Source: Mesostigma viride (taxonomy: Eukaryota > Streptophyta > Mesostigmatophyceae > Mesostigmatales > Mesostigmataceae). From it: a DNA stretch of 64,000 nt. This document shows positions 17,867-61,530 of this stretch, piece after piece. Within the stretch, counting starts at the first letter, position 1; each line of letters starts with the position of its first letter. The translations under genes were made by a program, and so were the position numbers. Under the pieces are notes generated by a model, which had not been told where the DNA came from, searched no databases, and saw only the letters and a program-made list of their open reading frames with translations. The stretch spans positions 89,939 to 153,938 of the forward strand of contig RPFO01000117.1 of NCBI GenBank assembly GCA_009746045.1, read 5' to 3'.

Positions 17867-17880
17867 ACGGCCGTTGGCTT
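17867..17880. repeat. Palindrome CCAACGGCCGTTGG
   Basis: A single perfect copy just beyond the inferred last exon of the minus-strand transposase-related gene, in its 3' flank. Confidence 0.85.
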
Positions 17881-18744
17881 TGAGAAATTAAGATATGCGA
17901 CATGCGCCATGCAGCCAAGCTAAAGTATAGGCTGATTGCCCTGTATGTAACATTAGTAAGGTGAACGACCGTCGACAAAAAAACACATGCGACATACAAA
18001 CACCAATTTTACACAGTAATGTTTGGAATGACGTACCGTAATTTCGGCGTCCACCTTCTTCGCAATTGTGAACCAGCCCTGTCGCGTGTTGTCCGGATGT
18101 CCTTCCCACTTGCCCTTCGTGACCTTTGCGACGCTCAGGTAGCACACGATTGCAGTTAAGGGTTCTCGGTCGTCTGGGTTCCAGAAGAAGCGTCGGGCGT
18201 CCGATCCGGAGGAGGAGCACCTCTCGAAGTATTTTACGTACATTACCCAGTTGCCTTTCTTAAAAACCTCGCCCCCCCCCCTGTATGTTTGTTTAAACAC
18301 TCATCCTTGTCGAGTTGGTGGGCGACTCGAACAACTTTCGCCAACCAGTACGGGTGGTCGGGCACATGGTCCTTGTGCCCCCTCTCAGATGCGACTGCGA
18401 CGGCCTCCCCCTCCTGCAAACCACGCCCCAACTCGTTTCTTGCCGTTTGAACGTGGTTCAGGCGGGTTCCCGGATATCGCGTGGGGTTCCGCGACTTACT
18501 CGCCTGGAGTTTTACAGTCCACGACGAGCTGCTCCAATCGTTTGGGCATGTCGTCCACTTGCCCTCTCGGCACTCCGCACAACTGAAGCATGAAAAACGC
18601 CTGAGCTTTACCACCTCGACCCGCTCGCCCTTTTTGTCCAGTCGCCACTGGTGTGCCGTGGAGATATCTCGGATCGGGCCTCGCTCCTTACCGGACGTGA
18701 GAATCTGCAATTGTAATTCCATGAAACAACATCACAGCACATTT

Positions 18745-18900
18745 CCCAACTCCAACGGCCGTTGGCACTCAACAATTATAAGATTTCCCAACTCCAACGG
18801 CCGTTGGCCCTTGGAAACTTTATATAAGTACATTTCTCAACTCCAACGGCCGTTGGCACTCAACAATTATACGATTTTCCAGCTCCAACGGCCGTTGGCC
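18745..18900. repeat. Four palindromes within an inferred intron
   Basis: Four copies of CCAACGGCCGTTGG spaced about 38-50 bp lie in the intron between exons C and D (19006-18705). Seen from the gene strand, several are followed within 4-7 bases by GGGAAA or GAAA, as at other sites in the window. Confidence 0.85.
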
Positions 18901-19777
18901 TTATGAAACTTCAAACTGCATCAAGGAAGCTGTCCTCTGTAAAGTGTAACCAGAGACAAATTATAGAACTGCACTTGACCACCAGAAAGCAACTGTCTTT
19001 ACTTACGTTATCGAGAAGAAATGCCCGTCGAACCACGTCCGATTGTGCCGATGGTCGACTCGAGTCTTTGCCGGTTCTCCAATCCCGGTTCAGGTAGGCC
19101 ACCAGTGCCTCCACCGTATTCAGGTTCCGATTGTCCTCCTGCATCTGCGCTCTTTTGAGGATGCTTTTGACCGTCCCCCCCTCCCCGTCCGACTCCCCCT
19201 TCCCATGTCCTGCACACGAGTAGTTCCACTCCAATGATTCCAAGTCGGGGTCGGCCTCGAGCAGGTCCGCAGCCATCGCCAACACATACCGGGATTGGAA
19301 CTGCTCCTTACAGTTGTCGGACCAACTGATCCAGTTCCTCACCTCCACCCCCTCCTCCCTCAGCACGTTAAGGGTATTCTTCATCACGAACTCCAGGGTC
19401 TGGGCATTCCTCGGTACGTCCTTCCCCATGTAATCGTGCTTCACCCTTTTGATTTCCAGCGATACGGGATCACGGTACATCACGATCACCGGCATCAGGA
19501 CGTAACTACTTGGGTACCAGTACTGCGCCTGCAACTGTTTCTGCAGGTGGTCCGAATAGTTCTCCGAGTAGTCCATCAGGACCACCACCGTTCCCAGCGG
19601 CATCACGTCAATGCACTCCTTGTAAGCGTGGTGCTGCCAGGCCCATGTATGGACGTGAATGGCGAATTCCGGGAAGCGCGCCGTAATGAGTTCATGGAGC
19701 TCCGAGAGGGTTGACTTGATGAGTTTTTGCTGCAGGTTCATTTGCGGCGCCACATCCTCCTCCTGCAACACAACACA

Positions 19778-20013
19778 CCCGCGCACCATGGATTGACCGA
19801 AGAATGGAAGTCAGCAGCTGGGAATTTCCCAACGCCAACGGCCGTTGGAAGTATGAAAGTCTACATATATATATTCAACGATGCAAATATACATGCCCGC
19901 GCACCATGGATTGACCGAAGAATGGAAGTCAGCAGCTGGGAATTTCCCAACGCCAACGGCCGTTGGAAGTATGAAAGTCTACATATATATATTCAACGAT
20001 GCAAATATACATG
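19778..20013. repeat. Two 118-bp direct repeats in an intron
   Basis: The segment starting at 19781 (GCGCACCATGG) recurs from 19899. Each copy holds one palindrome (near 19834 and 19952) and an alternating ATATATAT tract. The repeats fill the inferred intron between exons B and C of the transposase-related gene. Confidence 0.85.
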
Positions 20014-21235
20014 CTTACCGTCCCACGGGGCGCTGTGCCCTCCTTTATGAAGTCGAACCACGTGTACTTCTTTGTCCACCCCTTCATCTGGTCCGTCACG
20101 ATGAACTCGGAAATCCCACACTCGTTGCACGTCCCTTCCAAGCAGTTCATTGGGACGTTAACGAACGGGCCGCCCGTCCTCCCCCCTCCTTGCCCCCCTC
20201 CCCCCTCTCAGCCCTGTGGCAGGTGAAACGTCGAACGAAATCATGGGCATTGTCAGGCACGGAAGGGATACCCTCCCTCTCCTCGATCTCCAGCGTGCTC
20301 TTCAACTCCTTGACGCCTTTGGCGAAGGCAGAGAGCAGAGACTCGAAGACGACGTGCTTTTCGCATGCGCACAAGTCCCGGTCCTTCCACACGCCCTTTA
20401 CGCACTTGGGCATGAACTCCACGAACTTCGTGTACCCCACCTTGTACCTTGTCCCGTCCGCAGTCGTCACGATACCTCCCTTGTACGGCGACGCGTCAGA
20501 ACAGAACCGCTTGTAAATCGTTTCAAGCGAGTCCAAATAGTACCTTCCGCCCTGGGAGGAAATGAGGATCCTGGCGTTTCCCTTCCTTTCGAACTCATTG
20601 ACCACGTCCTTATGGTTGGGAGACGCCCTCGTGTTTAGGTCTGACAACCAGTAACTCCCGACGATGTCTTTGACCTCCTCCGGAAACTTGTCCGACCGTA
20701 AAGCACGAGGGGGCGCCTTCAGGGCGGGAAGGTCGCCCCCCATCCTCATTCCCCTTGCGGTCTGGATATCCTTGGGCGTGACGTGAAGCAGCCGCGCGAG
20801 AGTGCAATGCCCTTGATTGTTCATGCCGTCCTTTCCCAAGCACATTGACAGCACAGCGCACTTCGCGTTCCTGTGCTCATCCGACTTGCCCAATTCCTGG
20901 AAACCTTGCACGATATTAGCGACAACCTCCTGAGCGAAGGACTCCGACGCCTTTCTTTTCAGCGCAGGGCGGTACTGTTTCCCCATAACCTTCACAACCG
21001 CACCTGGCAGCCGCTCAAGCGCCCTCAAGCCTACTGCAGTTTTCGTGTTTTCAGTCTTGTGATTGTTGTCCTTCAGCAAGTATTCCATTGCGCTGGCCAT
21101 GTCGAGGGCAAGTTGGTTGCCCTTGATCTCGACGTACTTGAGACTTAGGTCTTTGTTGTGCGCTTCACCTGCATCCGCGCGCATACAGAATCCAGACGAA
21201 GTTTTGACTTTTTATCAAATTATTGCTTTCCAACA

Positions 21236-21835
21236 ATTACCCAATTTGTAGGTCCCAACGGCCGTTGGACCCCTGAAAGTACGCCTGAAACACGCCAACA
21301 CATGCATTTTCGACACCCAACGGCCGTTGGACCCCCGAAAGTGGGCCTGAAACACGCCAACACATGCATTTTCGACACCCAACGGCCGTTGGACCCCTGA
21401 AAGCGGGCCGAAAACACGCCAACACATGCATTTTCGACACCCAACGGCCGTTGGACCCCTGAAAGTGGGCCTGAAACACGCCAACACATGCATTTTCGAC
21501 ACCCAACGGCCGTTGGACCCCTGAAAGCGGGCCGAAAACACGCCAACACATGCATTTTCTACACCCAACGGCCGTTGGACCCCTGAAAGTGGGCCTGAAA
21601 CACGCCCTTTACATGCATTTTCGACACCCAACGGCCGTTGGACCCCTGAAAGCGGGCCGAAAACACGCCAACACATGCATTTTCGACGTCCAACGGCCGT
21701 TGGGCCCCTGAAAGCGGGCCGGAAACACGCTAACGCATGCATTTTAGACACCCAACGGCCGTTGGACCCCTGAAAGCGGGCCGAAAACTCGCCAACACCT
21801 GCATTTTTTACACGCCAGGATGTGAATTTCCGAAT
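21236..21835. repeat. 62-bp tandem array centred on the palindrome
   Basis: Nine palindromes start at 21255, 21317, 21379, 21441, 21503, 21565, 21628, 21690 and 21752, a nearly constant 62-bp period. Each unit reads TTTTCGACAC before and ACCCCTGAAAG after the palindrome, so TTTC/GAAA flank it symmetrically. A decayed copy follows near 21864. The array lies directly 5' of the inferred first exon of the minus-strand gene. Confidence 0.92.
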
Positions 21836-23362: not shown

Positions 23363-26300
23363 CCATTCTTGGTTACTAACGTTGATGTTTTGCTGCTTCC
23401 TTTGGTGCTTGATCTGCCTTGGTGTCGTGCCTCCGTTTGGTGGCCGGTGGTCACGGGATGCACAACAACGCTATCAGTTTTCTTCCACCCGCCGCCGCTG
23501 CCCCCGAAGGACAAGGATAAAAAAAAAGAAACATCTATAAAAAGGTACGACGCGTGGTGTGTTGCGTGCTTTTTTTCTTGGTTTTCTCGCTCCCTTGCAG
23601 CTCAGGTTTGCTGGCACATGTATTTATGCATGCCGGCACCACACCACATGTATTTATGCATGCCAGATAACACAGGCTGTGTGTCTGACTTTTTTTCGTC
23701 CCTGTCATATGCGGTCCGCCTCTCTTTTTTCGTGTTTTGTTTTTTGTTCGTATCTTCTACGGTACAACGCGACATGTTCACGGCGTCATCTGCGCGGTGT
23801 CACTAGCTTCATTTTTGCCGGCACCGCCGCCCCCGGCCGGCCCCATAAAAAAAAAGAAACATCTATAAAAAGGTACGACGCGTGGTGTGTTGCGTGCTTT
23901 TTTTCTTGGTTTTCTCGCTCCCTTGCAGGTCAGGTTTGCTGGCACATGTATTTATGCATGGCGGCACCACACCACATGTATTTATGCATGCCAGCACCCC
24001 ACCACCTTTTTTCATGCATGCCAGCACCCCCCCTAGGTATTTATGCATGCCAGCACCCCCCCTCGGTATTTATGCATGCCAGCACCCCACCCTAGGTATT
24101 TATGCATGCCAGCACCCCCCCTAGGTATTTATGCATGCCAGCACCCCCCCCTCGGTATTTATGCATGCCAGCACCCCCCCCTCGGTATTTATGCATGCCA
24201 GCACCCCACCCTAGGTATTTATGCATGCCAGCACCCCCCCCTAGGTATTTATGCATGCCAGCACCCCCCCCGACGTATTTATGCATGCCAGCACCCCCCA
24301 CATGTATTTATGCATGCCAGCACCCCCCCCTCGGTATTTATGCATGCCAGCACCCCCCCGACGTATTAATCCATGCCAGCACCCCCCCCTCGGTATTTAT
24401 GCATGCCAGCACCCCCCACATGTATTTATGCATGCCAGCACCCCCCCTCGGTATTTATGCATGCCAGCACCCCACCCGACGTATTAATGCATGCCAGCGA
24501 CCCCCCTAGGTATTTATGCATGCCAGCACCCCACCCGACGTATTTATGCATGCCAGCACCCCCATTCTTGGTTAATAACGTCAACGTCCTTGCTGCTTCC
24601 TTTGGTGCTTGATCCGCCTTGGTGTCGTGCCTCCGTTTGGTGGCCGGTGGTCACGGGATGCACAAACGGGAACGCTATCAGTTTTCCTCCACCGCCGCCG
24701 CTGCCCCAGGCCGGCTTAAAAATAAAAAAAGAAAAAAAGGTACGAATGGCAGCCCCCCCCCTAGGTATTTATGCATGCCAGCACCCCCCCTAGGTATTTA
24801 TGCATGCCAGCACCCCCCCTAGGTATTTATGCATGCCAGCACCCCCCCTCGGTATTTATGCATGCCTGCACCCCCCTAGGTATTTATGCATGCCAGCACC
24901 CCCCCTCGGTATTTATGCATGCCAGCCCCCCCCCTAGGTATTTATGCATGCCAGCACCCCCCTAGGTATTTATGCATGCCAGCACCCCCCCTAGGTATTT
25001 ATGCATGCCAGCCCCCCCCCTAGGTATTTATGCATGCCAGCACCCCCCTAGGTATTTATGCATGCCAGCACCCCACCCGACGTATTTATGCATGCCAGCG
25101 ACCCCCCCTAGTATTTATGCATGCCAGCCCCCCCCTCGGTATTTATGCATGCCAGCCCCCCCCTAGGTATTTATGCATGCCAGCACCCCCCCTAGGTATT
25201 TATGCATGCCAGCCCCCCCCCTCGGTATTTATGCATGCCAGCACCCCCCCTAGGTATTTATGCATGCCAGCACCCCCCTAGGTATTTATGCATGCCAGCA
25301 CCCCACCCGACGTATTTATGCATGCCAGCGACCCCCCGACGTATTTATGCATGCCAGCCCCCCCCCTAGGTATTTATGCATGCCAGCACCCCCCACATGT
25401 ATTTATGCATGCCAGCACCCCCCCCTAGGTATTGATGCATGCCAGCACCCCCATTCTTGGTTAATAACGTCAACGTCCTTGCTGCTTCCTTTGGTGCTTG
25501 ATCTGCCTTGGTGTCGTGCCTCCGTTTGGTGGCCGGTGGTCACGGGATGCACGAACGGGAATGCTATCAGTTTTCGTCCACCCGCCGCCGCTGCCCCAGG
25601 CCGGCTTAGCAATAAAAAAGAAAAAAAGGTACGAATGGCAGCCCCCCCCCTAGGTATTTATGCATGCCAGCACCCCCCCTAGGTATTTATGCATGCCAGC
25701 ACCCCCCTAGGTATTTATGCATGCCAGCGACCCCCCGACGTATTTATGCATGCCAGCCCCCCCCTAGGTATTTATGCATGCCAGCACCCCCCCTAGGTAT
25801 TTATGCATGCCAGCACCCCCCCCTAGGTATTTATGCATGCCAGCCCCCCCCTAGGTATTTATGCATGCCAGCCCCCCCCCTAGGTATTTATGCATGCCAG
25901 CACCCCCCCTAGGTATTTATGCATGCCAGCACCCCCCCCTCGGTATTTATGCATGCCTGCACCCCCCCTAGGTATTTATGCATGCCAGCACCCCCCCTCG
26001 GTATTTATGCATGCCAGCACCCCCCCTTGGTATTTATGCATGCCAGCCCCCCCCCTAGGTATTTATGCATGCCAGCACCCCCCCTAGGTATTTATGCATG
26101 CCAGCACCCCCCCTAGGTATTTATGCATGCCAGCGACCCCCCCGACGTATTTATGCATGCCAGCCCCCCCCTAGGTATTTATGCATGCCAGCACCCCCCC
26201 TAGGTATTTATGCATGCCAGCACCCCCCCTAGGTATTTATGCATGCCAGCCCCCCCCTAGGTATTTATGCATGCCAGCCCCCCCCTAGGTATTTATGCAT

Positions 26301-29300
26301 GCCAGCACCCCCCCTAGGTATTTATGCATGCCAGCACCCCCCCTCGGTATTTATGCATGCCTGCACCCCCCTAGGTATTTATGCATGCCAGCACCCCCCC
26401 TCGGTATTTATGCATGCCAGCACCCCCCCTTGGTATTTATGCATGCCAGCCCCCCCCTAGGTATTTATGCATGCCAGCACCCCCCCTAGGTATTTATGCA
26501 TGCCAGCACCCCCCCTAGGTATTTATGCATGCCAGCCCCCCCCCTAGGTATTTATGCATGCCAGCACCCCCCTAGGTATTTATGCATGCCAGCACCCCCC
26601 TAGGTATTTATGCATGCCAGCGACCCCCCGACGTATTTATGCATGCCAGCCCCCCCCTAGGTATTTATGCATGCCAGCACCCCCCCTAGGTATTTATGCA
26701 TGCCAGCCCCCCCCCTAGGTATTTATGCATGCCAGCACCCCCCTAGGTATTTATGCATGCCAGCATCCCCCCCTCGGTATTTATGCATGCCAGCACCCCC
26801 CCTCGGTATTTATGCATGCCAGCACCCCCCCTAGGTATTTATGCATGCCAGCACCCCCCTCGGTATTTATGCATGCCAGCACCCCCCCTAGGTATTTATG
26901 CATGCCAGCCCCCCCCTAGGTATTTATGCATGCCAGCCCCCCCCTAGGTATTTATGCATGCCAGCACCCCCCCTAGGTATTTATGCATGCCAGCACCCCC
27001 CCTAGGTATTTATGCATGCCAGCACCCCCTCTAGGTATTTATGCATGCCAGCACCCCCCCCTAGGTATTTATGCATGCCAGCACCCCCCCTAGGTATTTA
27101 TGCATGCCAGCACCCCCCTAGGTATTTATGCATGCCAGCACCCCCCTAGGTATTTATGCATGCCAGCACCCCCCCTAGGTATTTATGCATGCCAGCATCC
27201 CCACATGTATTTATGCATGCCAGCCCCCCCCCTAGGTATTTATGCATGCCAGCACCCCCCCCTCGGTATTTATGCATGCCAGCACCCCCTCTAGGTATTT
27301 ATGCATGCCAGCACCCCCCTAGGTATTTATGCATGCCAGCACCCCCCCTAGGTATTTATTCATGCCAGCATCCCCCCTCGGTATTTATGCATGCCAGCAC
27401 CCCCCTCGGTATTTATGCATGCCAGCACCCCCCCTAGGTATTTATGCATGCCAGCACCCCCACATGTATTTATGCATGCCAGCACCCCCCCTAGGTATTT
27501 ATGCATGCCAGCACCCCCCCTAGGTATTTATGCATGCCAGCACCCCACCCGACGTATTTATGCATGCCAGCACCCCCCCTAGGTATTTATGCATGCCAGC
27601 ACCCCCCCTAGGTATTTATGCATGCCAGCACCCCCCCTAGGTATTTATGCATGCCAGCACCCCCCCGACGTATTTATGCATGCCAGCACCCCCCCTAGGT
27701 ATTTATTCATGCCAGCATCCCCCCCTCGGTATTTATGCATGCCAGCACCCCCCTCGGTATTTATGCATGCCAGCACCCCCCCCTAGGTATTTATGCATGC
27801 CAGCCCCCCCCTAGGTATTTATGCATGCCAGCACCCCCCCTAGGTATTTATGCATGCCAGCACCCCCCTAGGTATTTATGCATGCCAGCACCCCCTCTAG
27901 GTATTTATGCATGCCAGCACCCCCCTAGGTATTTATGCTTGCCAGCACCCCCCTAGGTATTTATGCATGCCAGCACCCCCCCTCGGTATTTATGCATGCC
28001 AGCACCCCCCCCTAGGTATTTATGCATGCCAGCCCCCCCTCTAGGTATTTATGCATGCCAGCACCCCCCCCTAGGTATTTATTCATGCCAGCATCCCCCC
28101 CTCGGTATTTATGCATGCCAGCACCCCCCCTCGGTATTTATGCATGCCAGCACCCCCCCCTAGGTATTTATGCATGCCAGCACCCCCCACATGTATTTAT
28201 GCATGCCAGCACCCCCCCCTAGGTATTTATGCATGCCAGCACCCCCCTAGGTATTTATGCATGCCAGCACCCCCCTCGGTATTTATGCATGCCAGCACCC
28301 CCCCTAGGTATTTATGCATGCCAGCACCCCCCCCTAGGTATTTATGCATGCCAGCACCCCCCCTAGGTATTTATGCATGCCAGCACCCCCCCCGACGTAT
28401 TTATGCATGCCAGCACCCCATTCTTGGTTAATAACGTCAACGTCCTTGCTGCTTCCTTTGGTGCTTGATCTGCCTTGGTGTCGTGCCTCCGTTTGGTGGC
28501 CGGTGGTCACGGGATGCACAAACGGGAACGCTATCAGTTTTCGTCCACCCGCCGCCGCTGCCCCAGGCCGGCCCCCATTAAAAAATAAAAACAGAAAAAA
28601 AGGTACGAATGGCAGCACCCCCCCTAGGTATTTATGCATGCCAGCACCCCCCCTAGGTATTTATGCATGCCAGCACCCCCCCTAGGTATTTATGCATGCC
28701 AGCACCCCCCTAGGTATTTATGCATGCCAGCACCCCCCCTAGGTATTTATGCATGCCAGCACCCCCCACATGTATTTATGCATGCCAGCACCCCCTCTAG
28801 GTATTTATGCATGCCAGCACCCCCCTAGGTATTTATGCATGCCAGCACCCCCCCTAGGTATTTATTCATGCCAGCATCCCCCCCTCGGTATTTATGCATG
28901 CCAGCACCCCCCCTCGGTATTTATGCATGCCAGCACCCCCCCCTAGGTATTTATGCATGCCAGCACCCCCCACATGTATTTATGCATGCCAGCACCCCCC
29001 CTAGGTATTTATGCTTGCCAGCACCCCCCCTCGGTATTTATGCATGCCAGCACCCCCTCTAGGTATTTATGCATGCCAGCACCCCCCCTAGGTATTTATG
29101 CATGCCAGCACCCCCCCTAGGTATTTATGCATGCCAGCACCCCCCCGACGTATTTATGCATGCCAGCACCCCCATTCTTGGTTAATAACGTCAACGTCCT
29201 TGCTGCTTCCTTTGGTGCTTGATCTGCCTTGGTGTCGTGCCTCCGTTTGGTGGCCGGTGGTCACGGGATGCACAAACGGGAACGCTATCAGTTTTCGTCC

Positions 29301-29370
29301 ACCCGCCGCCGCTGCCCCAGGCCGGCCCCCATTAAAAAATAAAAACAGAAAAAAAGGTACGAGTGGCAGC
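23363..29370 (+). repeat. Five dispersed copies of a ~190-bp module
   Basis: Copies at about 23363-23560, 24563-24753, 25452-25642, 28419-28616 and 29173-29370 share CATTCTTGGTTAATAACGT at the start, a GC-rich middle, and an A-rich end followed by GGTACGA. Copies 2-5 are nearly identical and embedded in the 29-bp minisatellite; copy 1 is more divergent and just precedes it. A second shared block (AAACATCTATAAAAAGGTACG to GCTGGCACATG) occurs near 23529 and 23859. No coding function is evident. The module may be part of a higher-order repeat or a small non-autonomous element. Confidence 0.85.
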
Positions 29371-31553: not shown

Positions 31554-32415
31554 TATCCTTCCCTCCTTCCCTCCTTCCCTCCTTCCCTCCTTCCCTCCTT
31601 CCCTCCTTCCCTCCTTCCCTCCTTCCCTCCTTCCCTCCTTCCCTCCTTCCCTCCTTCCCTCCTTCCCTCCTTCCCTCCTTCCCTCCTTCCCTCCTTCCCT
31701 CCTTCCTCCTTCCCTCCTTCCCTCCTTCCCTCCTTCCCTCCTTCCCTCCTTCCCTCCTTCCCTCCTTCCCTCCTCCTCCTCCTTCCCTCCTTCCCTCCTT
31801 CCCTCCTTCCCTCCTTCCCTTCCTCCTTCCCTCCTTCCCTCCTTCCCTCCTTCCCTCCTTCCTCCTTCCCTCCTTCCCTCCTTCCCTCCTTCCCTCCTTC
31901 CCTCCTTCCCTCCTTCCCTCCTTCCCTCCTTCCCTCCTTCCCTCCTTCCCTCCTTCCCTCCTTCCCTCCTTCCCTCCTTCCCTCCTTCCTCCTTCCCTCC
32001 TTCCCTCCTTCCCTCCTTCCCTCCTTCCCTCCTTCCCTCCTTCCCTCCTTCCCTCCTTCCCTCCTTCCCTCCTTCCCTCCTTCCCTCCTTCCCTCCTTCC
32101 CTCCTTCCCTTCCTCCTTCCCTCCTTCCCTCCTTCCCTCCTCCTTTCCCTACTCCTTTCCCTCCTTCCCTCCTTCCCTCCTTCCTCCTTCCCTTCTTCCC
32201 TCCTTCCCTCCTTCCCTCCTTCCCTCCTCCTTTCCCTACTCCTTCCCTCCTTCCCTCCTTCCCTCCTTCCTCCTTCCCTTCTTCCCTCCTTCCCTCCTTC
32301 CCTCCTCCCTCCCTCCCTCCCTCCCTCCCTCCCTCCCTACTTCCCTCCTTCCCTCCTTCCCTACCTCCCTCCTTCCCTCCTTCCCTCCCTCCCTCCCTCC
32401 CTCCCTCCCTCCCAC
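31554..32415. repeat. CCTTCCCT polypyrimidine microsatellite
   Basis: About 860 bp of an 8-bp CCTTCCCT repeat, with degenerate CCCT and CCTCCTTT stretches near the 3' end. It is purely pyrimidine on the plus strand. Open frames on both strands are artefacts of the missing stops. Confidence 0.96.
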
Positions 32416-33249: not shown

Positions 33250-33429
33250 TGCGACCTAAGATGTTTTTAAATGTATATGCCAATTTAATGAAATCATTTT
33301 CTGAGGTTGTGAAGGACCTGACTGTTTTAAAAATGAATGATTACAATAAATTAGGCAAACACACTAATGGGAAAACGCGTTTTTTTGGCCGCGATGTAAA
33401 TCTTTTTGTTCGTTTTTTCCCTGAAAAAG

Positions 33430-44885: not shown

Positions 44886-44942
44886 CCAACGGCCGTTGAC
44901 CCTGCTGAATGCGTGCGTTTGCGGGTGGTGTAAAAAATATCG
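44886..44942 (+). promoter_or_regulatory. Palindrome upstream of 44943
   Basis: CCAACGGCCGTTGA ending 43 nt before the ATG. Beyond the palindrome the sequence differs from the other three upstream elements. Confidence 0.4.
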
Positions 44943-50475: not shown

Positions 50476-53400
50476 TCCTTGTCCTTGTCCTTGTCCTTGT
50501 CCTTGTCCTTGTCCTTGTCCTTGTCCTTGTCCTTGTCCTTGTCCTTGTCCTTGTCCTTGTCCTTGTCCTTGTCCTTGTCCTTGTCCTTGTCCTTGTCCTT
50601 GTCCTTGTCCTTGTCCTTGTCCTTGTCCTTGTCCTTGTCCTTGTCCTTGTCCTTGTCCTTGTCCTTGTCCTTGTCCTTGTCCTTGTCCTTGTCCTTGTCC
50701 TTGTCCTTGTCCTTGTCCTTGTCCTTGTCCTTGTCCTTGTCCTTGTCCTTGTCCTTGTCCTTGTCCTTGTCCTTGTCCTTGTCCTTGTCCTTGTCCTTGT
50801 CCTTGTCCTTGTCCTTGTCCTTGTCCTTGTCCTTGTCCTTGTCCTTGTCCTTGTCCTTGTCCTTGTCCTTGTCCTTGTCCTTGTCCTTGTCCTTGTCCTT
50901 GTCCTTGTCCTTGTCCTTGTCCTTGTCCTTGTCCTTGTCCTTGTCCTTGTCCTTGTCCTTGTCCTTGTCCTTGTCCTTGTCCTTGTCCTTGTCCTTGTCC
51001 TTGTCCTTGTCCTTGTCCTTGTCCTTGTCCTTGTCCTTGTCCTTGTCCTTGTCCTTGTCCTTGTCCTTGTCCTTGTCCTTGTCCTTGTCCTTGTCCTTGT
51101 CCTTGTCCTTGTCCTTGTCCTTGTCCTTGTCCTTGTCCTTGTCCTTGTCCTTGTGCCAGCACGTTGTCCTTGTCCTTGTCCTTGTCCTTGTCCTTGTCCT
51201 TGTCCTTGTCCTTGTCCTTGTCCTTGTCCTTGTCCTTGTCCTTGTCCTTGTCCTTGTCCTTGTCCTTGTCCTTGTCCTTGTCCTTGTCCTTGTCCTTGTC
51301 CTTGTCCTTGTCCTTGTCATTGTCATTGTCCTCGTCCTTGTCCTCGTCCTTGTCCTTGTCCTTGTCCTTGTCCTTGTCCTTGTCCTTGTCCTTGTCCTTG
51401 TCCTTGTCCTTGTCCTTGTCCTTGTGCCAGCACGTTGTCCTTGTCCTTGTCCTTGTCCTTGTCCTTGTCCTTGTCCTCGTCCTCGTCCTCGTCCTTGTCC
51501 TTGTCCTTGTCCTTGTCCTTGTCCTTGTCCTTGTCCTTGTCCTTGCCCTTGTCCTTGTCCTTGTCCTTGTCCTTGTCCTTGTCCTTGTCCTTGTCCTTGT
51601 CCTTGTCCTTGTCCTTGTCCTTGTCCTTGTCCTTGTCCTTGTGCCAGCACGTTGTCCTTGTCCTTGTCCTTGTCCTTGTCCTTGTCCTTGTCCTTGTCCT
51701 TGTCCTTGTCCTTGTCCTTGTCCTTGTCCTTGTCCTTGTCCTTGTCCTTGTCCTTGTCCTTGTCCTTGTCCTTGTCCTTGTCCTTGTCCTTGTCCTTGTC
51801 CTTGTCCTTGTCCTTGTCCTTGTCCTTGTCCTTGTCCTTGTCCTTGTCCTTGTCCTTGTCCTTGTCCTTGTCCTTGTCCTTGTCCTTGTCCTTGTCCTTG
51901 TCCTTGTCCTTGTCCTTGTCCTTGTCCTTGTCCTTGTCCTTGTCCTTGTCCTTGTCCTTGTCCTTGTCCTTGTCCTTGTCCTTGTCCTTGTCCTTGTCCT
52001 TGTCCTTGTCCTTGTCCTTGTCCTTGTCCTTGTCCTTGTCCTTGTCCTTGTCTTGTCTTGTCCTCGTCCTTGTCCTCGTCCTTGTCCTTGTCCTTGTCCT
52101 TGTCCTTGTCCTTGTCCTTGTCCTTGTCCTTGTCCTTGTCCTTGTCCTTGTCCTTGTCCTTGTCCTTGTGCCAGCACGTTGTCCTTGTCCTTGTCCTTGT
52201 CCTTGTCCTTGTCCTTGTCCTCGTCCTCGTCCTTGTCCTTGTCCTTGTCCTTGTCCTTGTCCTTGTCCTTGTCCTTGTCCTTGTCCTTGTCCTTGTCCTT
52301 GTCCTTGTCCTTGTCCTTGTCCTTGTCCTTGTCCTTGTCCTTGTCCTTGTCCTTGTCCTCGTCCTCGTCCTTGTCCTTGTCCTTGTCCTTGTCCTTGTCC
52401 TTGTCCTTGTCCTTGTCCTTGTCCTTGTCCTTGTCCTTGTCCTTGTCCTTGTCCTTGTCCTTGTCCTTGTCCTCGTCCCTCCTGTCCTTGTCCTTGTCCT
52501 TGTCCTTGTCCTCGTCCTCGTCCTGTCCTGTCCTCGGCCTTGTCGTTGGCCTTGTCCTTGTCCTTGTCCTTGTCCTTGTCCTTGTCCTTGTCCTTGTCCT
52601 TGTCCTTGTCCTTGTCCTTGTCCTTGTCCTTGTCCTTGTCCTTGTCCTTGTCCTTGTCCTTGTCCTTGTCCTTGTCCTTGTCCTTGTCCTTGTCCTTGTC
52701 CTTGTCCTTGTCCTTGTCCTCGTCCTTGTCCTCGTCCTTGTCCTTGTCCTTGTCCTTGTGCTTGTCCTCGTCGTCCTCGTCCTTGTCCTTGTCCTTGTCC
52801 TTGTCCTTGTCCTTGTCCTTGTCCTTGTCCTTGTCCTTGTCCTTGTCCTTGTCCTTGTCCTTGTGCCAGCACGTTGTCCTTGTCCTTGTCCTTGTCTTGT
52901 CCTTGTCCTTGTCCTTGTCCTTGTCCTTGTCCTTGTCCTTGTCCTTGTCCTTGTCCTTGTCCTTGTCCTTGTCCTTGTCCTTGTCCTGTCCTTGTCCTTG
53001 TCCTTGTCCTTGTCCTTGTCCTTGTCCTTGTCCTTGTCCTTGTCCTTGTCCTTGTCCTTGTCCTTGTCCTTGTCCTTGTCCTTGTCCTTGTCCTTGTCCT
53101 TGTCCTTGTCCTTGTCCTTGTCCTTGTCCTTGTCCTTGTCCTTGTCCTTGTCCTTGTCCTTGTCCTTGTCCTTGTCCTTGTCCTTGTCCTTGTCCTTGTC
53201 CTTGTCCTTGTCCTTGTCCTTGTCCTTGTCCTTGTCCTTGTCCTTGTCCTTGTCCTTGTCCTTGTCCTTGTCCTTGTCCTTGTCCTTGTCCTTGTCCTTG
53301 TCCTTGTGCCAGCCTTGTCCTTGTCCTTGTCCTTGTCCTTGTCCTTGTCCTTGTCCTTGTCCTTGTCCTTGTCCTTGTCCTTGTCCTTGTCCTTGTCCTT

Positions 53401-56400
53401 GTCCTTGTCCTTGTCCTTGTCCTTGTCCTTGTCCTTGTCCTTGTCCTTGTCCTTGTCCTTGTCCTTGTCCTTGTCCTTGTGCCAGCACTTGTCCTTGTCC
53501 TTGTCCTTGTCCTTGTCCTTGTCCTTGTCCTTGTCCTTGTCCTTGTCCTTGTCCTTGTCCTTGTCCTTGTCCTTGTCCTTGTCCTTGTCCTTGTCCTTGT
53601 CCTTGTCCTTGTCCTTGTCCTTGTCCTTGTCCTTGTCCTTGTCCTTGTCCTTGTCCTTGTCCTTGTCCTTGTCCGTCCTTGTCCTTGTCCTTGTCCTTGT
53701 CCTTGTCCTTGTCCTTGTCCTTGTCCTTGTCCGTCCTTGTCCTGTCCTTGTCCTTGTCCTTGTCCTTGTCCTTGTCCTTGTCCTTGTCCTCGTCCTTGTC
53801 CTTGTCCTTGTCCTTGTCCTTGTCCTTGTCCTTGTCCTTGTCCTTGTCCTTGTCCTTGTCCTTGTCCTTGTCCTTGTCCTTGTCCTTGTCCTTGTCCTTG
53901 TCCTTGTCCTTGTCCTTGTCCTTGTCCTTGTCCTTGTCTTGTCCTTGTCCTCGTCCTTGTCCTTGTCCTTGTCCTTGTCCTTGTCCTTGTCCTTGTCCTT
54001 GTCCTTGTCCTTGTCCTTGTCCTTGTCCTTGTCCTTGTCCTTGTCCTTGTGCCAGCACGTTGTCCTTGTCCTTGTCCTTGTCCTTGTCCTTGTCCTTGTC
54101 CTCGTCCTCGTCCTTGTCCTTGTCCTTGTCCTTGTCCTTGTCCTTGTCCTTGTCCTTGTCCTTGTCCTTGTCCTTGTCCTTGTCCTTGTCCTTGTCCTTG
54201 TCCTTGTCCTTGTCCTTGTCCTTGTCCTTGTCCTCGTCCTCGTCCTCGTCCTTGTCCTTGTCCTTGTCCTTGTCCTTGTCCTTGTCCTTGTCCTTGTCCT
54301 TGTCCTTGTCCTTGTCCTTGTCCTTGTCCTTGTCCTTGTCCTTGTCCTCGTCCTCGTCCTCGTCCTTGTCCTTGTCCTTGTCCTTGTCCTCGTCCTCGTC
54401 CTCGTCCTCGTCCTGCCTTGTCCTTGGCCTTGTCCTTGTCCTTGTCCTTGTCCTTGTCCTTGTCCTTGTCCTTGTCCTTGTCCTTGTCCTTGTCCTTGTC
54501 CTTGTCCTTGTCCTTGTCCTTGTCCTTGTCCTTGTCCTTGTCCTTGTCCTTGTCCTTGTCCTTGTCCTTGTCCTTGTCCTTGTCCTTGTCCTGTCCTTGT
54601 CCTGTCCTTGTCCTTGTCCTTGTCCTTGTCCTTGTCCTGTCCTTGTCCTGTCCTTGTCCTTGTCCTTGTCCTTGTCCTTGTCCTTGTCCTTGTCCTTGTC
54701 CTTGTCCTTGTCCTTGTCCTTGTCCTTGTCCTTGTGCCAGCACTTGTCCTTGTCCTTGTCCTTGTCCTTGTCCTTGTCCTTGTCCTTGTCCTTGTCCTTG
54801 TCCTTGTCCTTGTCCTTGTCCTTGTCTTGCCTTGTCCTTGTCCTTGTCCTTGTCCTTGTCCTTGTCCTTGTCCTTGTCCTTGTCCTTGTCCTTGTCCTTG
54901 TCCTTGTCCTTGTCCTTGTCCTTGTCCTTGTCCTTGTCCTTGTCCTTGTCCTTGTCCTTGTCCTTGTCCTTGTCCTTGTCCTTGTCCTTGTCCTTGTCCT
55001 TGTCCTTGTCCTTGTCCTTGTCCTTGTCCTTGTCCTTGTCCTTGTCCTTGTCCTTGTCCTTGTCCTTGTCCTTGTCCTTGTCCTTGTCCTTGTCCTTGTC
55101 CTTGTCCTTGTCCTTGTCCTTGTCCTTGTCCTTGTCCTTGTCCTTGTCCTTGTCCTTGTCCTTGTCCTTGTCCTTGTGCCAGCACGTTGTCCTTGTCCTT
55201 GTCCTTGTCCTTGTCCTTGTCCTTGTCCTTGTCCTTGTCCTTGTCCTTGTCCTTGTCCTTGTCCTTGTCCTTGTCCTTGTCCTTGTCCTTGTCCTTGTCC
55301 TTGTCCTTGTCCTTGTCCTTGTCCTTGTCCTTGTCCTTGTCCTTGTCCTTGTCCTTGTGCAGCCTTGTCCTTGTCCTTGTCCTTGTCCTTGTCCTTGTCC
55401 TTGTCCTTGTCCTTGTCCTTGTCCTTGTCCTTGTCCTTGTCCTTGTCCTTGTCCTTGTCCTTGTCCTTGTCCTTGTCCTTGTCCTTGTCCTTGTCCTTGT
55501 CCTTGTCCTTGTCCTTGTCCTTGTCCTTGTCCTTGTCCTTGTCCTTGTCCTTGTCCTCGTCCTTGTCCTTGTCCTTGTCCTTGTCCTTGTCCTTGTCCTT
55601 GTCCTTGTCCTTGTCCTCGTCCTGTCCTCGTCCTTGTCCTTGTCCTTGTCCTTGTCCTTGTCCTTGTCCTCGTCCTCGTCCTCGTCCTTGTCCTTGTCCT
55701 TGTCCTTGTCCTTGTCCTTGTCCTTGCCCTTGTCCTTGTCCTTGTCCTTGTCCTTGTCCTTGTCCTTGTCCTTGTCCTCGTCCTCGTCCTCGTCCTTGTC
55801 CTTGTCCTTGTCCTTGTCCTCGTCCTCGTCCTCGTCCTGTCCTCGCCTTGTCGTTGGCCTTGTCCTTGTCCTTGTCCTTGTCCTTGTCCTTGTCCTTGTC
55901 CTTGTCCTTGTCCTTGTCCTTGTCCTTGTCCTTGTCCTTGTCCTTGTCCTTGTCCTTGTCCTTGTCCTTGTCCTTGTCCTTGTCCTTGTCCTTGTCCTTG
56001 TCCTTGTCCTTGTCCTTGTCCTTGTCCTTGTCCTTGTCCTTGTCCTTGTCCTTGTCCTTGTCCTTGTCCTTGTCCTTGTCCTTGTCCTTGTCCTTGTCCT
56101 TGTCCTTGTCCTTGTCCTTGTCCTTGTCCTTGTCCTTGTCCTTGTCCTTGTCCTTGTCCTTGTCCTTGTCCTTGTCCTTGTCCTTGTCCTTGTCCTTGTC
56201 CTTGTCCTTGTCCTTGTCCTTGTCCTTGTCCTTGTCCTTGTCCTCGTCCTTGTCCTCGTCCTTGTCCTTGTCCTTGTCCTTGTGCTTGTCCTCGTCCTCG
56301 TCCTCGTCCTTGTCCTTGTCCTTGTCCTTGTCCTTGTCCTCGTCCTCGTCCTTGTCCTTGTCCTTGTCCTTGTCCTTGTCCTTGTCCTTGTCCTTGTCCT

Positions 56401-56755
56401 CGTCCTCATCCTCGTGCTTGTCCTTGTCCTTGTCCTTGTCCTTGTCCTTGTCCTTGTCCTTGTCCTTGTCCTTGTCCTTGCCCTTGCCCTTGTCCTTGTC
56501 CTTGTCCTTGTCCTTGTCCTTGTCCTTGTCCTTGTCCTTGTCCTTGTCCTTGTCCTTGTCCTTGTCCTTGTCCTTGTCCTTGTCCTTGTCCTTGTCCTTG
56601 TCCTTGTCCTTGTCCTTGTCCTTGTCCTTGTCCTTGTCCTTGTCCTTGTCCTTGTCCTTGTCCTTGTCCTTGTCCTTGTCCTTGTCCTTGTCCTCGTCCT
56701 TGTCCTTGTCCTTGTCCTTGTCCTTGTCCTTGTCCTTGTCCTTGTCCTTGTCCTT
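50476..56755. repeat. 6.3-kb CCTTGT hexanucleotide array
   Basis: About 1,040 hexamers, mainly CCTTGT, with local CCTCGT variants and short slips. It is interrupted by GTGCCAGCACGTTG-type words near 51152, 51427, 51643, 52169, 52862, 54049 and 55176, and by shorter forms near 53306, 53481 and 54734. Several interruptions are followed by the same pattern of six CTTGTC units and two or three CTCGTC units, so larger blocks were duplicated. It encodes CP, SL, VL, KD, RT or GQ dipeptide runs, all artefacts. The array starts and ends inside CTTGCGCC of the 46-bp palindrome unit. Confidence 0.97.
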
Positions 56756-56762: not shown

Positions 56763-57612
56763 TTGATTTTCTTGCGCCAACGGCCGTTGCAATTTGGAAA
56801 TTAGGGTGTTATTTTTTTTTTGCCCAACGGCCGTCGGAACCTTGAAATTAGGGTGTGATTTTCATGCGCCAACGGCCGTTGGAACCCGTAAATTAGGGTG
56901 TGATTTTCATGCGCCAACGGCCGTCGGAACCTTAAAATTAGGGTGTGATTTTCATGCGCCAACGGCCGTTGGAACCTGGAAATTAGGGTGTTATTTTTCT
57001 GTCGCCAACGGCCGTTGGAACCTGGAAATGAAGGTGTCATTTTTCTCGCGCCAACGGCCGTTGGAAACTGGAAATTAGGGTGTGATTTTCATGCGCCAAC
57101 GGCCGTTGGAACCTGGAAAATAGGGTGTGATTTTTCTCGCGCCAACGGCCGTTGGAACCTGGAAAATAGGGTGTCATTTTTCTCGCGCCAACGGCCGTTG
57201 GAACCTGGAAATTAGGGTGTGATTTTTCTGTCGCCAACGGCCGTTGGAACCTGGAAATTAGGGTGTGATTTTCATGCGCCAACGGCCGTTGGAACCTGTA
57301 AATTAGGGTGTGATTTTCATGCGCCAACGGCCGTTGGAACCTGTAAATTAGGGTGTGATTTTCATGCGCCAACGGCCGTCGGAACCTTAAAATTAGGGTG
57401 TGATTTTCATGCGCCAACGGCCGTTGGAACCTGGAAATTAGGGTGTTATTTTTCTGTCGCCAACGGCCGTTGGAACCTGGAAATTAGGGTGTGATTTTCA
57501 TGCGCCAACGGCCGTTGGAACCTGTAAATTAGGGTGTGATTTTCATGCGCCCACGGCCGTTGGAACCTGGAAATTAGGGTGTTATTTTTCTGTCGCCAAC
57601 GGCCGTTGGAAC
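56763..57612 (+). repeat. 46-bp tandem palindrome array (19 units)
   Basis: Palindromes begin at about 56777, 56824, 56869 and onward to 57597, spaced 42-48 bp (mostly 46). The unit is palindrome, AACCTGGAAATTAGGGTGTG, then ATTTTTCT or ATTTTCATGCG. Several units have CCGTCGG instead of CCGTTGG. It lies in the inferred intron before 57660. Confidence 0.95.
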
Positions 57613-57659: not shown

Positions 57660-58814
57660 GGGCGTCCGTCAAGGCAGAGAACGGACGAAGAGCGGAGGAA
57701 GTGGGCTTACAAGATTGAACATAACTGTTCGGAAAGGCATCTCACAACATTTTTTGAGGACTGGCGCCAACGAGCACCGGGCACCGACTTATGGTCGGTT
57801 ATTGTGAAGACCTTTGAGAGGAAGGGGCTGCTGACGACACGTGCTGGAAATGCGAAGCCCAGCATTTTGGACTCCTGGGAGCCAGCGCCGTCCTCTCAAG
57901 TGCACGACAAGAATCTAACTGACACCATACAGGCGGCGTTTCATCTGCGGCAGAAGATACGCCTAGTTCCAGACGATGTCGACATCGTGGGGGGGTCCGC
58001 GATTGCGACTCAAGTACGGGCCCCCACGGAGAACTTGTGCCAACTCCCGGAACTCATGCGGCACCGGACGGTGACGGTGCGGAATTGTAGGGGGCTCGCG
58101 CCGTGGTTCGTGGGGGCCGGCACAAGTCTGACAAAAGCAAAATGTGCCGTGCCGATCTTCCGGTTTGCGTGGCAGGTGCTGGCAGACCGTGATCCAGGTC
58201 TCTACAATTTATGGGTGCAGAGGAGTGAAAAGGTTCCTTACCACATTAAAATACTGACGGGGGACGACAGTGACCGTGCCGTGCAGAGGTTCGGATACTA
58301 TCGTTCGCCAACGGCCGAGGAAGCCATGTCCATTCTCCGGACGGACTCCCTGAAGGACATGGCGGCCGCTTGCTCAGACGAGTTGATCACCATGGAGTTG
58401 GATCCGTCCGAGTGGTCAAATGAATCTGAGCGTGAGGCAGTAGTTGACCTGACGAAATCCGCGCTGGGGAGCTTGAACATCTCGGACCATGCCGGCCTTA
58501 AGGGTAAATTTCGAGACCAGACGCCTTGCGTGTTTGTGCAGTTTGCCGTGCTGGACGGCAACCACTACACACAGATGTTGAAGTCCGTGATTTTCGAGGG
58601 CTCTGACGAGCAAGTGAGTACTGCGATAGCTGGCGAGATTGCGGGTAAACAAAAGGGCAAGTTCGTGGAGACAACCGACGAGGCGTTTGATTTGTGGAGG
58701 GGGTTGGTGAGGGACGCGGAGAAGTTCAAGTACACCAATCTGGACGTGCTCAAGGGCTGGGAGGTGGAGGGGGAAGCACTGATCCCGCCCATGAAGGACA
58801 TGCGGACGCAAAAG
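57660..58814 (+). CDS. Exon of a large unknown protein (385 residues)
   Basis: Entry is at a CAG acceptor (57657-57659) in phase 0; exit is at GTAAAT (58815) after MRTQK, phase 0. Reads GRPSRQRTDEERRKWAYK, EDWRQRAPGTDLWSVIVKTF, WFVGAGTSLTKAKCAVPIF, PCVFVQFAVLDGNHYTQML. The start DEERRKWAYKIEHNCSE is charged and may be helical. No known family was recognised. If the donor is not used, the frame runs to a TAG at 58854-58856. The next 46-bp array begins just after, so the array would again be intronic. Confidence 0.65.
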
Positions 58815-58857
58815 GTAAATATAACGGATCGGGTGTGGGAACGTTTTAGGCACTAGA

Positions 58858-59335
58858 TGTTATTTTTCTTGCGCCAACGGCCGTTGGAACCTGGAAATTA
58901 GGGTGTGATTTTTCTTGCGCCAACGGCCGTTGGAACCTGGAAATTAGGTGTGATTTTTCTTGCGCCAACGGCCGTTGGAACCTGGAAATTAGGGTGTGAT
59001 TTTTCTTGCGCCAACGGCCGTTGGAACCTGGAAATTAGGGTGTCATTTTTCCTGCGCCAACGGCCGTTGGAACCTGGAAATTTGGTTGATATTTTTCTTG
59101 CGCCAACGGCCGTTGGAACCTGGAAATTCGGTGACATTTTTCTTGCGCCAACGGCCGTTGGAACCTGGAAATTAGGGTGTGATTTTTCTTGCGCCAACGG
59201 CCGTTGGAACCTGGAAATTAGGGTGTGATTTTTCTTGCGCCAACGGCCGTTGGAACCTGGAAATTAGGGTGTGATTTTTCTTGCGCCAACGGCCGTTGGA
59301 AACTGGAAATTAGGGTGTGATTTTTGTTCGGGAAC
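58858..59335 (+). repeat. 46-bp tandem palindrome array (10 units)
   Basis: Palindromes start near 58874, 58920, 58965, 59011, 59057, 59103, 59148, 59194, 59240 and 59286, with a decayed end copy near 59333. The unit is the same as in 56763-57612 but more uniform, with CTTGCG preceding each palindrome. It lies in the inferred 615-bp intron 58815-59429. Confidence 0.95.
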
Positions 59336-59429
59336 GGCCGATCTTCCAAAGTGTAAGGACAAAATGTCAGGTCGTGTGTTGTATGACCGTTTTTTGTCTC
59401 AAACACTGATTCACATTTCATGCATGCAG

Positions 59430-61450
59430 GGGAGAGAGGCGCATCGGAGGGTTGCCCTGATCGGAGGGGGGCTGAATGCAGAAGACGAGGCCGTTTCCAA
59501 AAAGTCGAGGGGGACGGCGCTGCTGGAAGTGCACAACTATTTCAAGACGCACATGGAGGAATCCTGGGATAAGCCGGAGGTGCCCCTTCAGGACCAGAAA
59601 GAAATATGGAATTTGATTCATGGGGTTTCAAGCAGCACTGAGAAGGCAAGGAAGGACGGGGAGGGGGAGGAGGGTGGTGAGGAGCGGGTTGGAGGGCGAT
59701 TGAACGAGGGCCGGGCCCACTTCAAATGTTCCGCCGTCCAAGCCAAGTGTGTGACACTTTTGGTCGTTTTTCGCAAAAAAAAAATAAAATTTCGCACGAG
59801 TTCGCGTGATTTTCGCGTGATTTTCGCAAAATTTTCACACATTTTCGCACGATTTCGCACGATTTCGCACAATTTTGCATGATTTCGCACAATTTCGCAT
59901 GGATTTCAACCAAGGGTCGTTTTGGGGAGTGACGTTTGACAAAATTTCGCATGAATTCACACACGTTGTGCACATCAAAATTTTTTTACCGTCGACATTT
60001 TTCACATGAAATTTCGCACAATTTCAGCAAATTTCGCACAAATTCGCACGATTTCAGCAAATTTCACACGATTTCAGCAAATTTCGCACAATTTCGCACG
60101 ATTTCGCACGACGAATCACTCTGCAGAGTGACGATCGTCGAAAAAGTAAAAAAAACGACCAAAAGTGTCACACTTTTCGGAACATTTGAAGTGGGCCCGG
60201 CCCGAGGGTGGTTTGTCCGAATCGGAGAAAACCCAAGTCTACGACTTCATCTCGGCTGTGAAGGATGAAACGGTCGCTCCGAACGACGACAGTAGATGTG
60301 GAATGCCGATTGAGGACAAGCTGGCCAAGGAGCTTGCAGAGTTTCTGGACATCGTGGCAGCGGACAAGCTGGACGGGGAGGGAAGGGTGATGAGGAAGGG
60401 GGGGGGATCAAACAGGAAGGGTGGAGGAGTCTAGCCCGCTTTCGATTCTGGCCGTCTATCATGGCAACCGTGAAGGCCAAACACGTTCCTCCTCAGTGCT
60501 TGTATGACCTGACATACATGGCCAAGATCTTCTGCGAGGTGATGGTCCAGCTTTTCATGATCTACAACCGCGATTTGGGGAAATACCCCGAACCACGCGA
60601 CCTCGGCTGGTTGCCGATGCAGCCTTCGGAAGCCGACAGCGCCCTTCAGAGGGTGGCCGATACGGTCGCTGTAGCTGCCAAGAGACTAAGGGCGGTTATC
60701 AGGCCAACGGGGAGGGACGATTCCACCTTCCCACTTGCACTGCTGGAGAGGACGGATTTTTGGACGACCCACAAGGAGGAAACGAAATGGTGGGTCCTGA
60801 TTGCGCCCGAACCCCCAACCGAACAGGCTGTGGTGCCCCAACCCGTACAGCCTGTGGCGGGGGCTGTGGTGGTGACGGGGGCTGTGCCGGAGGAAGGCCA
60901 AGCCGAACATGCCGAGGCAGAGGACGTCCAGTCGGGTCGCCAAAAAAAGGTGGGGGAGAAGCGGGAACCCCCGCGGAAGTTTGGGTCGGAGGAGCTGGCA
61001 TCCGAAATCGAGCAGCAGGGCCCGTGGATTTCTAAGAAAGTTTACGGGTCTGACGGGGATACGACCTGTGAGTTCATGATGAAGACTTTCGCGTGGGAGA
61101 AAAGCGATGGGCCGACACGGTTGGCTCAAGTGGTACTTAATGCAATGGAGGGGTTCGAATTTGTTGCGAAGAGGACGGGGTTGACGAACAAGCCGGATAT
61201 CAAGAATGGGATATGGCTGCTGAATTTGGAACACCACGCGAAGCTGTGGAATGATGAGGAATTGTTGAAGGGTCGAACGGGTTCGTGGGTGGAGAAAAGG
61301 GACTGGAAGGCGGCGAAGGATTGTGGAGATTTCAATGGTGTGAAGGACGACTGGTCGTCGTACCTAGGCGATTTCACGGGATTCTTCAACCCACCCGTGA
61401 TCTTCATTGGGTCAAAGGAGCAGGTGGATGGGTTTAAGGTCCTTCTGAAG
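59430..61450 (+). pseudogene. Exon of the large unknown protein, interrupted by a transposon and a frame break
   Basis: Entered after TGCATGCAG in phase 0 (GREAHRRVALIGGG). Coding runs to RLNE at 59708, is interrupted by the 494-bp element at 59709-60202, and resumes with GGLSESEKTQVYDFISAVK in the same frame once the element and one target copy are discounted. A G9 run (60398-60406) then separates this frame from the next, which continues through MATVKAKHVPPQCLYDL to QVDGFKVLLK and a GTACTT donor at 61451. The part from 60461 alone is a 330-residue stretch with an acidic, Pro/Val-rich linker (about 60800-60960) and Trp-rich C-terminal portion. No domain was recognised. Confidence 0.6.
59709..60202. 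mobile_element. 494-bp inverted-repeat transposon (MITE-like) inside an exon
   Basis: Perfect 25-bp terminal inverted repeats start GGCCGGGCCCACTTC (59709-59733 and 60178-60202). A second inverted block, TGTGACACTTTTGGTCGT, lies just inside. CGAG is present on both sides (59705-59708 and 60203-60206), a 4-bp target duplication. The interior is built from TTTCGCACGA-like 10-11-bp repeats. No transposase. The superfamily was not assigned. Precise removal would restore the reading frame. Confidence 0.85.
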
Positions 61451-61530
61451 GTACTTGGGAAGCGGCACAGGGGGAGGATATTTCCAATCCCAACGGCCGT
61501 TCGGGCAAGGAAATTGCGGGTGCAGCCCAG
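61451..61530 (+). other. 80-nt intron carrying a palindrome variant
   Basis: Begins GTACTT and ends CCCAG, phase 0 on both sides, joining LLK to KRPLETAGAG. It contains CCAACGGCCGTTCG near 61490, one base from the standard palindrome. Confidence 0.55.

Follow-up and report, generated by a model that had tools for sequence, protein, structure and literature searches.

Among described systems, those closest to the locus reported here include the CENP-B box, a short conserved protein box in alpha satellite repeats whose other bases diverge, and the VANDALs, MULE-type transposons with target duplications longer than the 4-bp ones that we found. In Arabidopsis VANDALs the sites of VANC21 are dense, lie in introns and in intergenic and terminal noncoding regions, and occur in tandem repeats, and the VANC motif is short, one-sided (YAGTATTAY) and kept in the same orientation, according to the passages of PMC5735166 that treat it. 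Sola2 elements have 4-bp target duplications, with AT-rich examples, and imperfect terminal inverted repeats of 12-21 bp, as given in the relevant part of PMC3627910, and Teratorn is a giant transposon of 41-182 kb with inverted-repeat termini, as given in the corresponding part of PMC6431247. The self-recognition, protection and mobilization of very long transposons are poorly known. Here we analyze a repeated 14-bp palindrome in a stretch of 64,000 nucleotides from the alga Mesostigma viride (the window; C1237:89,939-153,938 in a genome of 440 Mb and 2,243 contigs). The DNA that carries the palindrome is, almost certainly, part of a giant, recently amplified DNA transposon, and the overall explanation that we favor, and think likely, is that the repeated dyads serve as sites for a dimeric protein in VANC-like marking of that element.

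Distribution of the palindrome

The palindrome CCAACGGCCGTTGG occurs in the window as 61 exact and 17 one-mismatch copies, where dinucleotide shuffles lead us to expect 0.02.

17,864-61,503, unstranded: span of the 78 dyad sites, with extended dyad TTT-N7-CCAACGGCCGTTGG-N7-AAA

The original prediction of about 80 copies across 17.9-61.5 kb is thus borne out, as is its claim that the copia-like element (1-9,969), the 40-bp and 29-bp minisatellites and the CCTTGT array are free of the palindrome, each holding 0 sites. Genome-wide we counted 9,685 exact copies; the reversed control gave 0, and with equal base frequencies chance would give about 1.6 copies of a 14-mer in 440 Mb (our own arithmetic). 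This comparison with random expectation had been chosen beforehand as one on which the idea would stand or fall, and it leaves the idea standing.

The genome search listed 50 of the 9,685 sites. All are on contig C1, inside two segments of the element (2.099-2.198 Mb, with a left end, and 5.080-5.096 Mb, with a right end) that make up about 115 kb of the first 5.09 Mb; among the sites listed, none lies elsewhere there. The bare 14-mer was present in 108 stretches of viral contigs, each of the 80 listed holding a single site, and the extended pattern TTTC-N5-core-N6-GAAA in 0, so that no related element was seen there. Phage DNA searched with one palindrome array gave no match. The searched literature text did not contain the 14-mer, and its inner 12-mer appeared only in three norovirus and cytomegalovirus papers, unrelated by title.

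The element that carries the palindrome

Five segments of the element recur across the genome, each in at least 40 places and with scored matches at 98-100% identity: 33,429-35,515 (best 40 of 369 candidates scored), 57,672-58,816 (best 40 of 210, 99-100% identity), 19,100-20,700 (best 40 of 155), the last 300 bases before 63,790 (best 40 of 224) and the 300 bases from C1237:1,958 (best 40 of 184); the unscored candidates are not confirmed copies. The segments also keep their arrangement. Eight contigs are common to the listings of the 33.4-kb and 57.7-kb pieces, and in seven of them (C2010, C1659, C1615, C1237, C1948, C1468 and C2053) the two pieces stand in the same order and on the same strand, 21-63 kb apart. 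The 33.4-kb and 19.1-kb pieces share nine contigs (C1557, C1237, C1408, C721, C26, C1677, C1573, C10 and C2014), and in all nine they have the opposite orientation seen in the window, 10-27 kb apart.

Counted over both strands, the 21-mer GATG-core-GACC is present 210 times. Of the 100 positions that were listed, 52 fall into 26 pairs with a spacing of 3.0-3.15 kb, which is also the spacing in the window. The window copy of the element, including its part to the left of the window, holds 64 exact and 83 near-exact sites. Taken against the 9,685 sites genome-wide, this number and the count of the 21-mer suggest on the order of 100-150 element copies. On C1135 and C1398 the 21-mer pairs of the MYND/F-box block (see the gene list below) lie as inverted neighbors at a distance of about 1.6 kb, which points to blocks arranged head to head. 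We dropped the possibilities that C1 and C1237 are two haplotypes of one locus, or differ by a 2.9-Mb rearrangement, since both hold copies of a dispersed element.

Similarity among the window copy and the copies at C1:5.096 Mb and C1:9.742 Mb stops at one place, window position 63,790, and the left end of the window copy lies beyond the window, at C1237:1956.

63,764-63,790, plus strand: right terminal inverted repeat and right end of the element, ending in TGTGGGCCCCCCC

All 13 right ends that we compared end in TGTGGGCCCCCCC, next to 13 different flanks, with an extra C after the terminal seven in 4 of them. All 12 left ends begin with GGGAAGGCCCACACTAAATC, next to 11 different flanks, those on C1237 and C1413 being identical. 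(Ten of the right ends and ten of the left were picked from the best 40 matches per end; the others are those of copies on C1237 and C1.) The terminal inverted repeats are imperfect, matching at 19 of 27 bases, a score that 2 of 200,000 random pairs reach. Three of the four same-contig pairs of ends that were read are flanked by 4-bp target duplications: TGGG on C1446 (80.7 kb), TCAA on C1524 (39.7 kb) and GCAA on C557 (139.9 kb). C1468 holds a possible fifth pair (5,710,278-5,825,722). The chance of such duplications is about 7e-08 for three of three and, by our own arithmetic, about 3e-07 for three of four; in two of the three, a fifth base matches if the last C of the terminus is counted as flank. 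The element thus combines shared termini at different sites, terminal inverted repeats and a target duplication of fixed length, the marks of a cut-and-paste DNA transposon with terminal inverted repeats.

One idea in the original prediction, that of a mobile element, therefore holds for the DNA carrying the palindrome and fails for the palindrome itself, around which there are no convincing duplications. A miniature inverted-repeat transposable element (MITE) made of the palindrome was rejected after 864 combinations of offset and length yielded no target duplication, the best z of 3.9 arising at scattered offsets.

The element also has a candidate for its own transposase.

18,300-21,211, minus strand: candidate transposase gene of several exons, with D-D-D-like motifs MDYSENY / WSDNCKEQFQ / HGKGESDGEGG

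We take these three spaced acidic motifs, read by eye, to resemble those of D-D-D transposases; a D-D-D triad is also carried by Sola transposases. An AlphaFold single-sequence model of one exon reached a predicted local distance difference test score (pLDDT) of 43, and a Foldseek search with this low-confidence model gave a best E value of 2.5e-04 and TM-scores of at most 0.37 among the 50 matches listed, most of which are RNase H-like nucleases. Scans of the window's open frames gave no confident Pfam match for this gene.

Repeated subterminal sites for a transposase or for TnpA are known in plant DNA transposons, and the dyads could be sites of this kind, bound by the element's transposase or by an accessory protein like the TnpA of En/Spm that would pull a long transposon into the transposition complex. 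The dyad symmetry, the location of every listed site in element copies and the candidate RNase H-like transposase, as judged from its low-confidence model, are consistent with such a role. The ends, however, show no concentration of sites: the window copy has its first site about 470 bp in from the left end and its last about 2.3 kb short of the right end, and the majority lie well within it, introns included. The motif is also absent from the terminal inverted repeats, and on balance we consider a role of this kind unlikely.

Symmetry and conservation of the site

The palindrome is the center of a 34-bp dyad, in which the 14-bp core and its TTT and AAA arms are mirror-symmetric about the midpoint. 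Within the window, TTT stands at -10 to -8 in 58 of the 78 sites, AAA at +21 to +23 in 70, and both in 54, which confirms, in a sharper form, the symmetric TTTC and GAAA extensions first noticed by eye. After copies with similar flanks were dropped, the 32 of 151 sites that were left showed exact symmetry of the arms, weaker symmetric preferences between arms and core, and little information further out.

Symmetry of this kind might also reflect a palindrome that works in the element's RNA, as a hairpin terminator, a 3'-end element or a splicing element. In a second set (29 of 153 sites), mirror positions 1-8 were complementary about as often as in shuffles, or less often. Among 25 such positions a single one, position 9 inside the conserved arm, paired above shuffles (z 3.4), two beside the core paired less than shuffles (z -2.2 and -1.9), and one-sided changes in the core came without a compensating change. 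Of 8 sites folded as single strands, 4 had the core hairpin in their minimum-energy fold; one site gave a z-score of -2.87, and values ranged up to +0.76. Position 9 and the one site that folds well would fit an RNA role, as would the sites just past stop codons and the single site in spliced mRNA that are described below. The remaining mirror positions, without covariation, the uncompensated core changes and the uneven folding argue against it, as does the presence of the motif in arrays, ahead of genes and close to genes on either strand, and we regard it as very improbable. Given the lack of covariation and the inconsistent folding of the hairpin, a double-stranded site for a symmetric protein is favored over an RNA stem. 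The folding and the uncompensated core changes also bear, indirectly, on the structural cruciform of the original prediction, since the hairpin is not consistently preferred in single strands. The exact two-fold dyad with its arms, conserved in unrelated contexts and without covariation beside the core, likewise favors the earlier idea of a paired protein site. From its sequence, then, the dyad is quite probably a site for a dimeric DNA-binding protein.

The unrelated contexts include six tandem repeats.

18,741-18,899, unstranded: 42-bp array, intronic in the minus-strand gene, holding 4 sites
19,778-20,014, unstranded: 118-bp direct duplication, also intronic in the minus-strand gene, holding 2 sites; source of the 63-nt in-frame exon in EukProt P0001 (below)
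21,254-21,813, unstranded: 62-bp array with 9 sites; deviations 0/126 in the core, 0/54 in the arms and 35/351 elsewhere
36,425-38,549, unstranded: 208-bp array with 11 sites
56,764-57,612, unstranded: 45-bp array with 19 sites
58,858-59,340, unstranded: 46-bp array with 10 sites, inside a GT-AG intron drawn by eye

Their units (42, 62, 118, 208 and 45-46 bp) are unrelated to one another, and the palindrome occurs once in each unit. Across the six sets, 0-2.4% of core bases and 0-3.3% of arm bases depart from the consensus, against 3-22% of the rest, where the 22% is inflated by the ungapped comparison of the 208-bp set; one edge unit each of the 208-bp and 45-bp arrays was excluded. Several arrays with one palindrome per unit are also what one might see if the palindrome were a passenger driven by recombination or replication, a cruciform hotspot from which tandem duplications start, no binding protein being involved. 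The separate TTT and AAA arms, however, are kept while the bases between them vary, which is unexpected for a passenger, and of all the explanations weighed here we give this one the least credence.

Comparison between element copies, with arrays masked and alignments below 95% identity or 250 bp dropped, gave substitutions at 2 of 736 core positions, 0 of 316 arm positions and 36 of 2,765 positions in flanks within 40 bases (core plus arms versus flanks, p 0.0008). Elsewhere there were 91 in 10,639 coding positions and 60 in 13,100 others (0.5%). We put the fact that this last rate is below that of the flanks down to the nearly identical left part of the element; the contrast with the neighboring flanks is the fairer between-copy test, and the conservation signal is modest.

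Sites, genes and transcripts

Gene models were drawn by hand from open frames and GT-AG signals, with transcript support at one place only. None of the 78 sites overlaps the drawn coding sequence, to which 46% of the region belongs; with the sites grouped into 18 clusters, the chance of this is about 1.5e-05. They lie instead in introns, in spacers and in the unrelated arrays, near genes of both orientations. A search with the minus-strand gene returned, among 640 candidates, one EukProt fragment of 164 amino acids labeled Prorocentrum lima (P0001), which is 100% identical to the gene over 99 amino acids. In its reading frame it also takes in 63 nt of the 19.8-20.0 kb intron, palindrome included (PTAVG). 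At least one site there is therefore carried in spliced mRNA, so that the claim that the palindrome is always outside exons stands for the drawn coding sequence and has to be qualified at this place. The match indicates, from sequence identity, that the minus-strand gene is transcribed, and the Prorocentrum lima label may give the true source or may reflect a contaminant of the culture.

The drawn genes, with the open frame near the right end, are as follows.

33,430-34,206, plus strand: MYND-finger gene (Pfam PF01753, E 8.8e-08, above the cut-off)
34,610-35,515, plus strand: gene with a weak F-box match (18.2 bits, under the Pfam cut-off of 20.5)
38,591-46,542, plus strand: six further compact genes, whose spacers hold sites except between the last pair; they are the next three entries
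38,591-39,379, plus strand: MYND paralog, by eye, of 33,430-34,206, with a frame break in the window copy
39,764-40,381 and 42,652-43,257, plus strand: two paralogous genes
43,560-44,342, 44,943-45,524 and 45,739-46,542, plus strand: three compact genes
57,672-58,816, plus strand: exon of an element gene, with at least 40 genomic copies at 99-100%
60,461-61,459, plus strand: open frame of no known family, also in the C1:9.74-Mb copy

Four drawn starts (38,591, 39,764, 43,560 and 44,943) have a site that ends 39-56 bp before them, and three plus-strand stops (40,381, 43,257 and 44,342) have one that starts 13-25 bp past them. The upstream sites could reflect a host protein, MYB-like or another dimeric factor, that binds the dyad and either silences the element or is hijacked by the element for transcription. 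The palindrome holds two AACGG in opposite orientation, which presumably resemble a MYB core, and this too would fit a host factor. Among the sites listed, however, there is no exact copy outside the element in the first 5.09 Mb of C1, which would be unusual for a host regulatory site, and sites also occur in introns and downstream of stops. A silencer's target, moreover, would be expected to erode, yet the dyad is conserved. A host factor thus seems to us no likelier than a transposase site.

The protein at 57.6-58.9 kb had no relative at E 0.001 among 3,647 candidates, a PDB sequence search with two element proteins found nothing convincing, and scans of the window with Rfam (at gathering scores) and for tRNAs found nothing. 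General Pfam scans of 20 window frames showed no giant-virus hallmark genes, such as those for capsid or packaging ATPase, that would suggest an endogenous giant virus, no search having been aimed at these.

Insertions and internal arrays

The copia-like retroelement at 1-9969 carries a 1.86-kb stretch repeated at 1-1864 and 8106-9969 with 99.9% identity, and adjoins the 40-bp minisatellite, which also occurs far to the left on C1237. Its frame (1-3,117) had no relative at E 0.001 among 7,996 candidates scored. At 59711-60202 an AT-rich piece of about 492 bp, with inverted ends and many TTTCGCAC, is present in the window and missing from two other element copies, and looks like a foldback MITE insertion. 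The stretch 40438-42446 lies between two element genes and contains a 412-bp sequence twice at 100% identity (40,438-40,849 and 41,859-42,270) and a second repeat of 139 bp; it looks like a short insert with long direct repeats at its ends. Next to the C1 5.096-Mb copy, just beyond its right end, the DNA looks by eye as if it encoded a MULE-type transposase, and this copy may have inserted into another transposon. Very long simple arrays (29-, 8- and 6-bp units) at 23948-32412 and 50476-56755 lie inside the element and differ in extent from those of the C1 copies; the variation in element length seems to be partly array-driven.

Discussion

In the marking that we favor, each dyad would be bound by a homodimeric DNA-binding protein, which we infer to be encoded by the element more likely than by the host. 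With its introns, spacers and arrays densely bound, the long element would be marked for a single function, most likely that of shielding its genes from silencing (compare VANC in VANDAL transposons), and the binding might also help to assemble the element for transposition. A VANC-like anti-silencing role is suggested by analogy, and we put it forward tentatively. New sites would spread through local tandem duplication, which would produce unrelated arrays with the dyad alone in common. More speculatively still, a private 34-bp dyad and the element's own dimeric factor might coat 40-140 kb and form an identity and anti-silencing system convergent with VANC, with which the element stays active, perhaps in at least 100 near-identical copies.

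A multicopy family of 40-140 kb whose members carry a repeated symmetric site of their own would add an independent case of sequence-specific marking of whole transposons. The 34-bp dyad also provides a concrete bait for its binding protein, and it suggests a route by which one conserved site can seed unrelated minisatellites.

Several points weigh against this interpretation. The dyad is a two-fold structure of 34 bp, whereas the VANC motif is short and one-sided in the passages of PMC5735166 that treat it. Apart from the MYND finger, no confident Pfam family was found in the 20 window frames, and no binder was recognized among them. The between-copy conservation test rests on few substitutions, and confinement of the palindrome to the element genome-wide is an extrapolation from 50 of 9,685 sites listed. 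On C2089 the 33.4-kb and 57.7-kb pieces are about 948 kb apart and hence belong to different copies. Finally, the window copy (about 152 kb, on C1237) lacks a target duplication, its left flank being CCTA and its right CATG. Given this lack, and a left flank that the C1413 copy shares exactly, the assembly may have brought its two ends together across a long site-free stretch of C1237 (4.2-107.8 kb, 0 sites), which is at least partly repetitive, as the 40-bp minisatellite and the copia-like insertion were seen in it.

The favored marking can be set beside known systems. The CENP-B box is likewise a conserved box within diverging tandem repeats; the box here is scattered through a mobile element, in its introns and spacers, and turns up in arrays unrelated to one another. 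Sola2, the only superfamily covered by our comparison of 4-bp duplications, shares these duplications and short imperfect inverted repeats (27 bp here) in the relevant part of PMC3627910, although the duplications found here (TGGG, TCAA and GCAA) are not AT-rich, as its examples are, and the likeness is one of duplications and repeats. Teratorn and the Starships, in the parts of their descriptions that bear on this, resemble the element in spanning tens to hundreds of kilobases with many genes and defined termini; they differ in that Pfam scans of the window frames showed no herpesvirus or tyrosine-recombinase domain here. The internal repeated dyad is a further difference from Teratorn, for which the portion of PMC6431247 on its structure describes none. 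Among the 20 window frames nothing was recognized by Pfam as VANC, whether Pfam models VANC not having been checked, and in its 40-140 kb and 4-bp duplications the element differs from a VANDAL. It is like VANDAL and VANC, as far as the passages of PMC5735166 on the motif go, in having a short motif that is enriched in one transposon family, dense in noncoding parts, spread via tandem repeats, and lacking in coding probes there as in the drawn coding sequence here. The comparison is one of how such a system may work, by analogy, and not one of membership.

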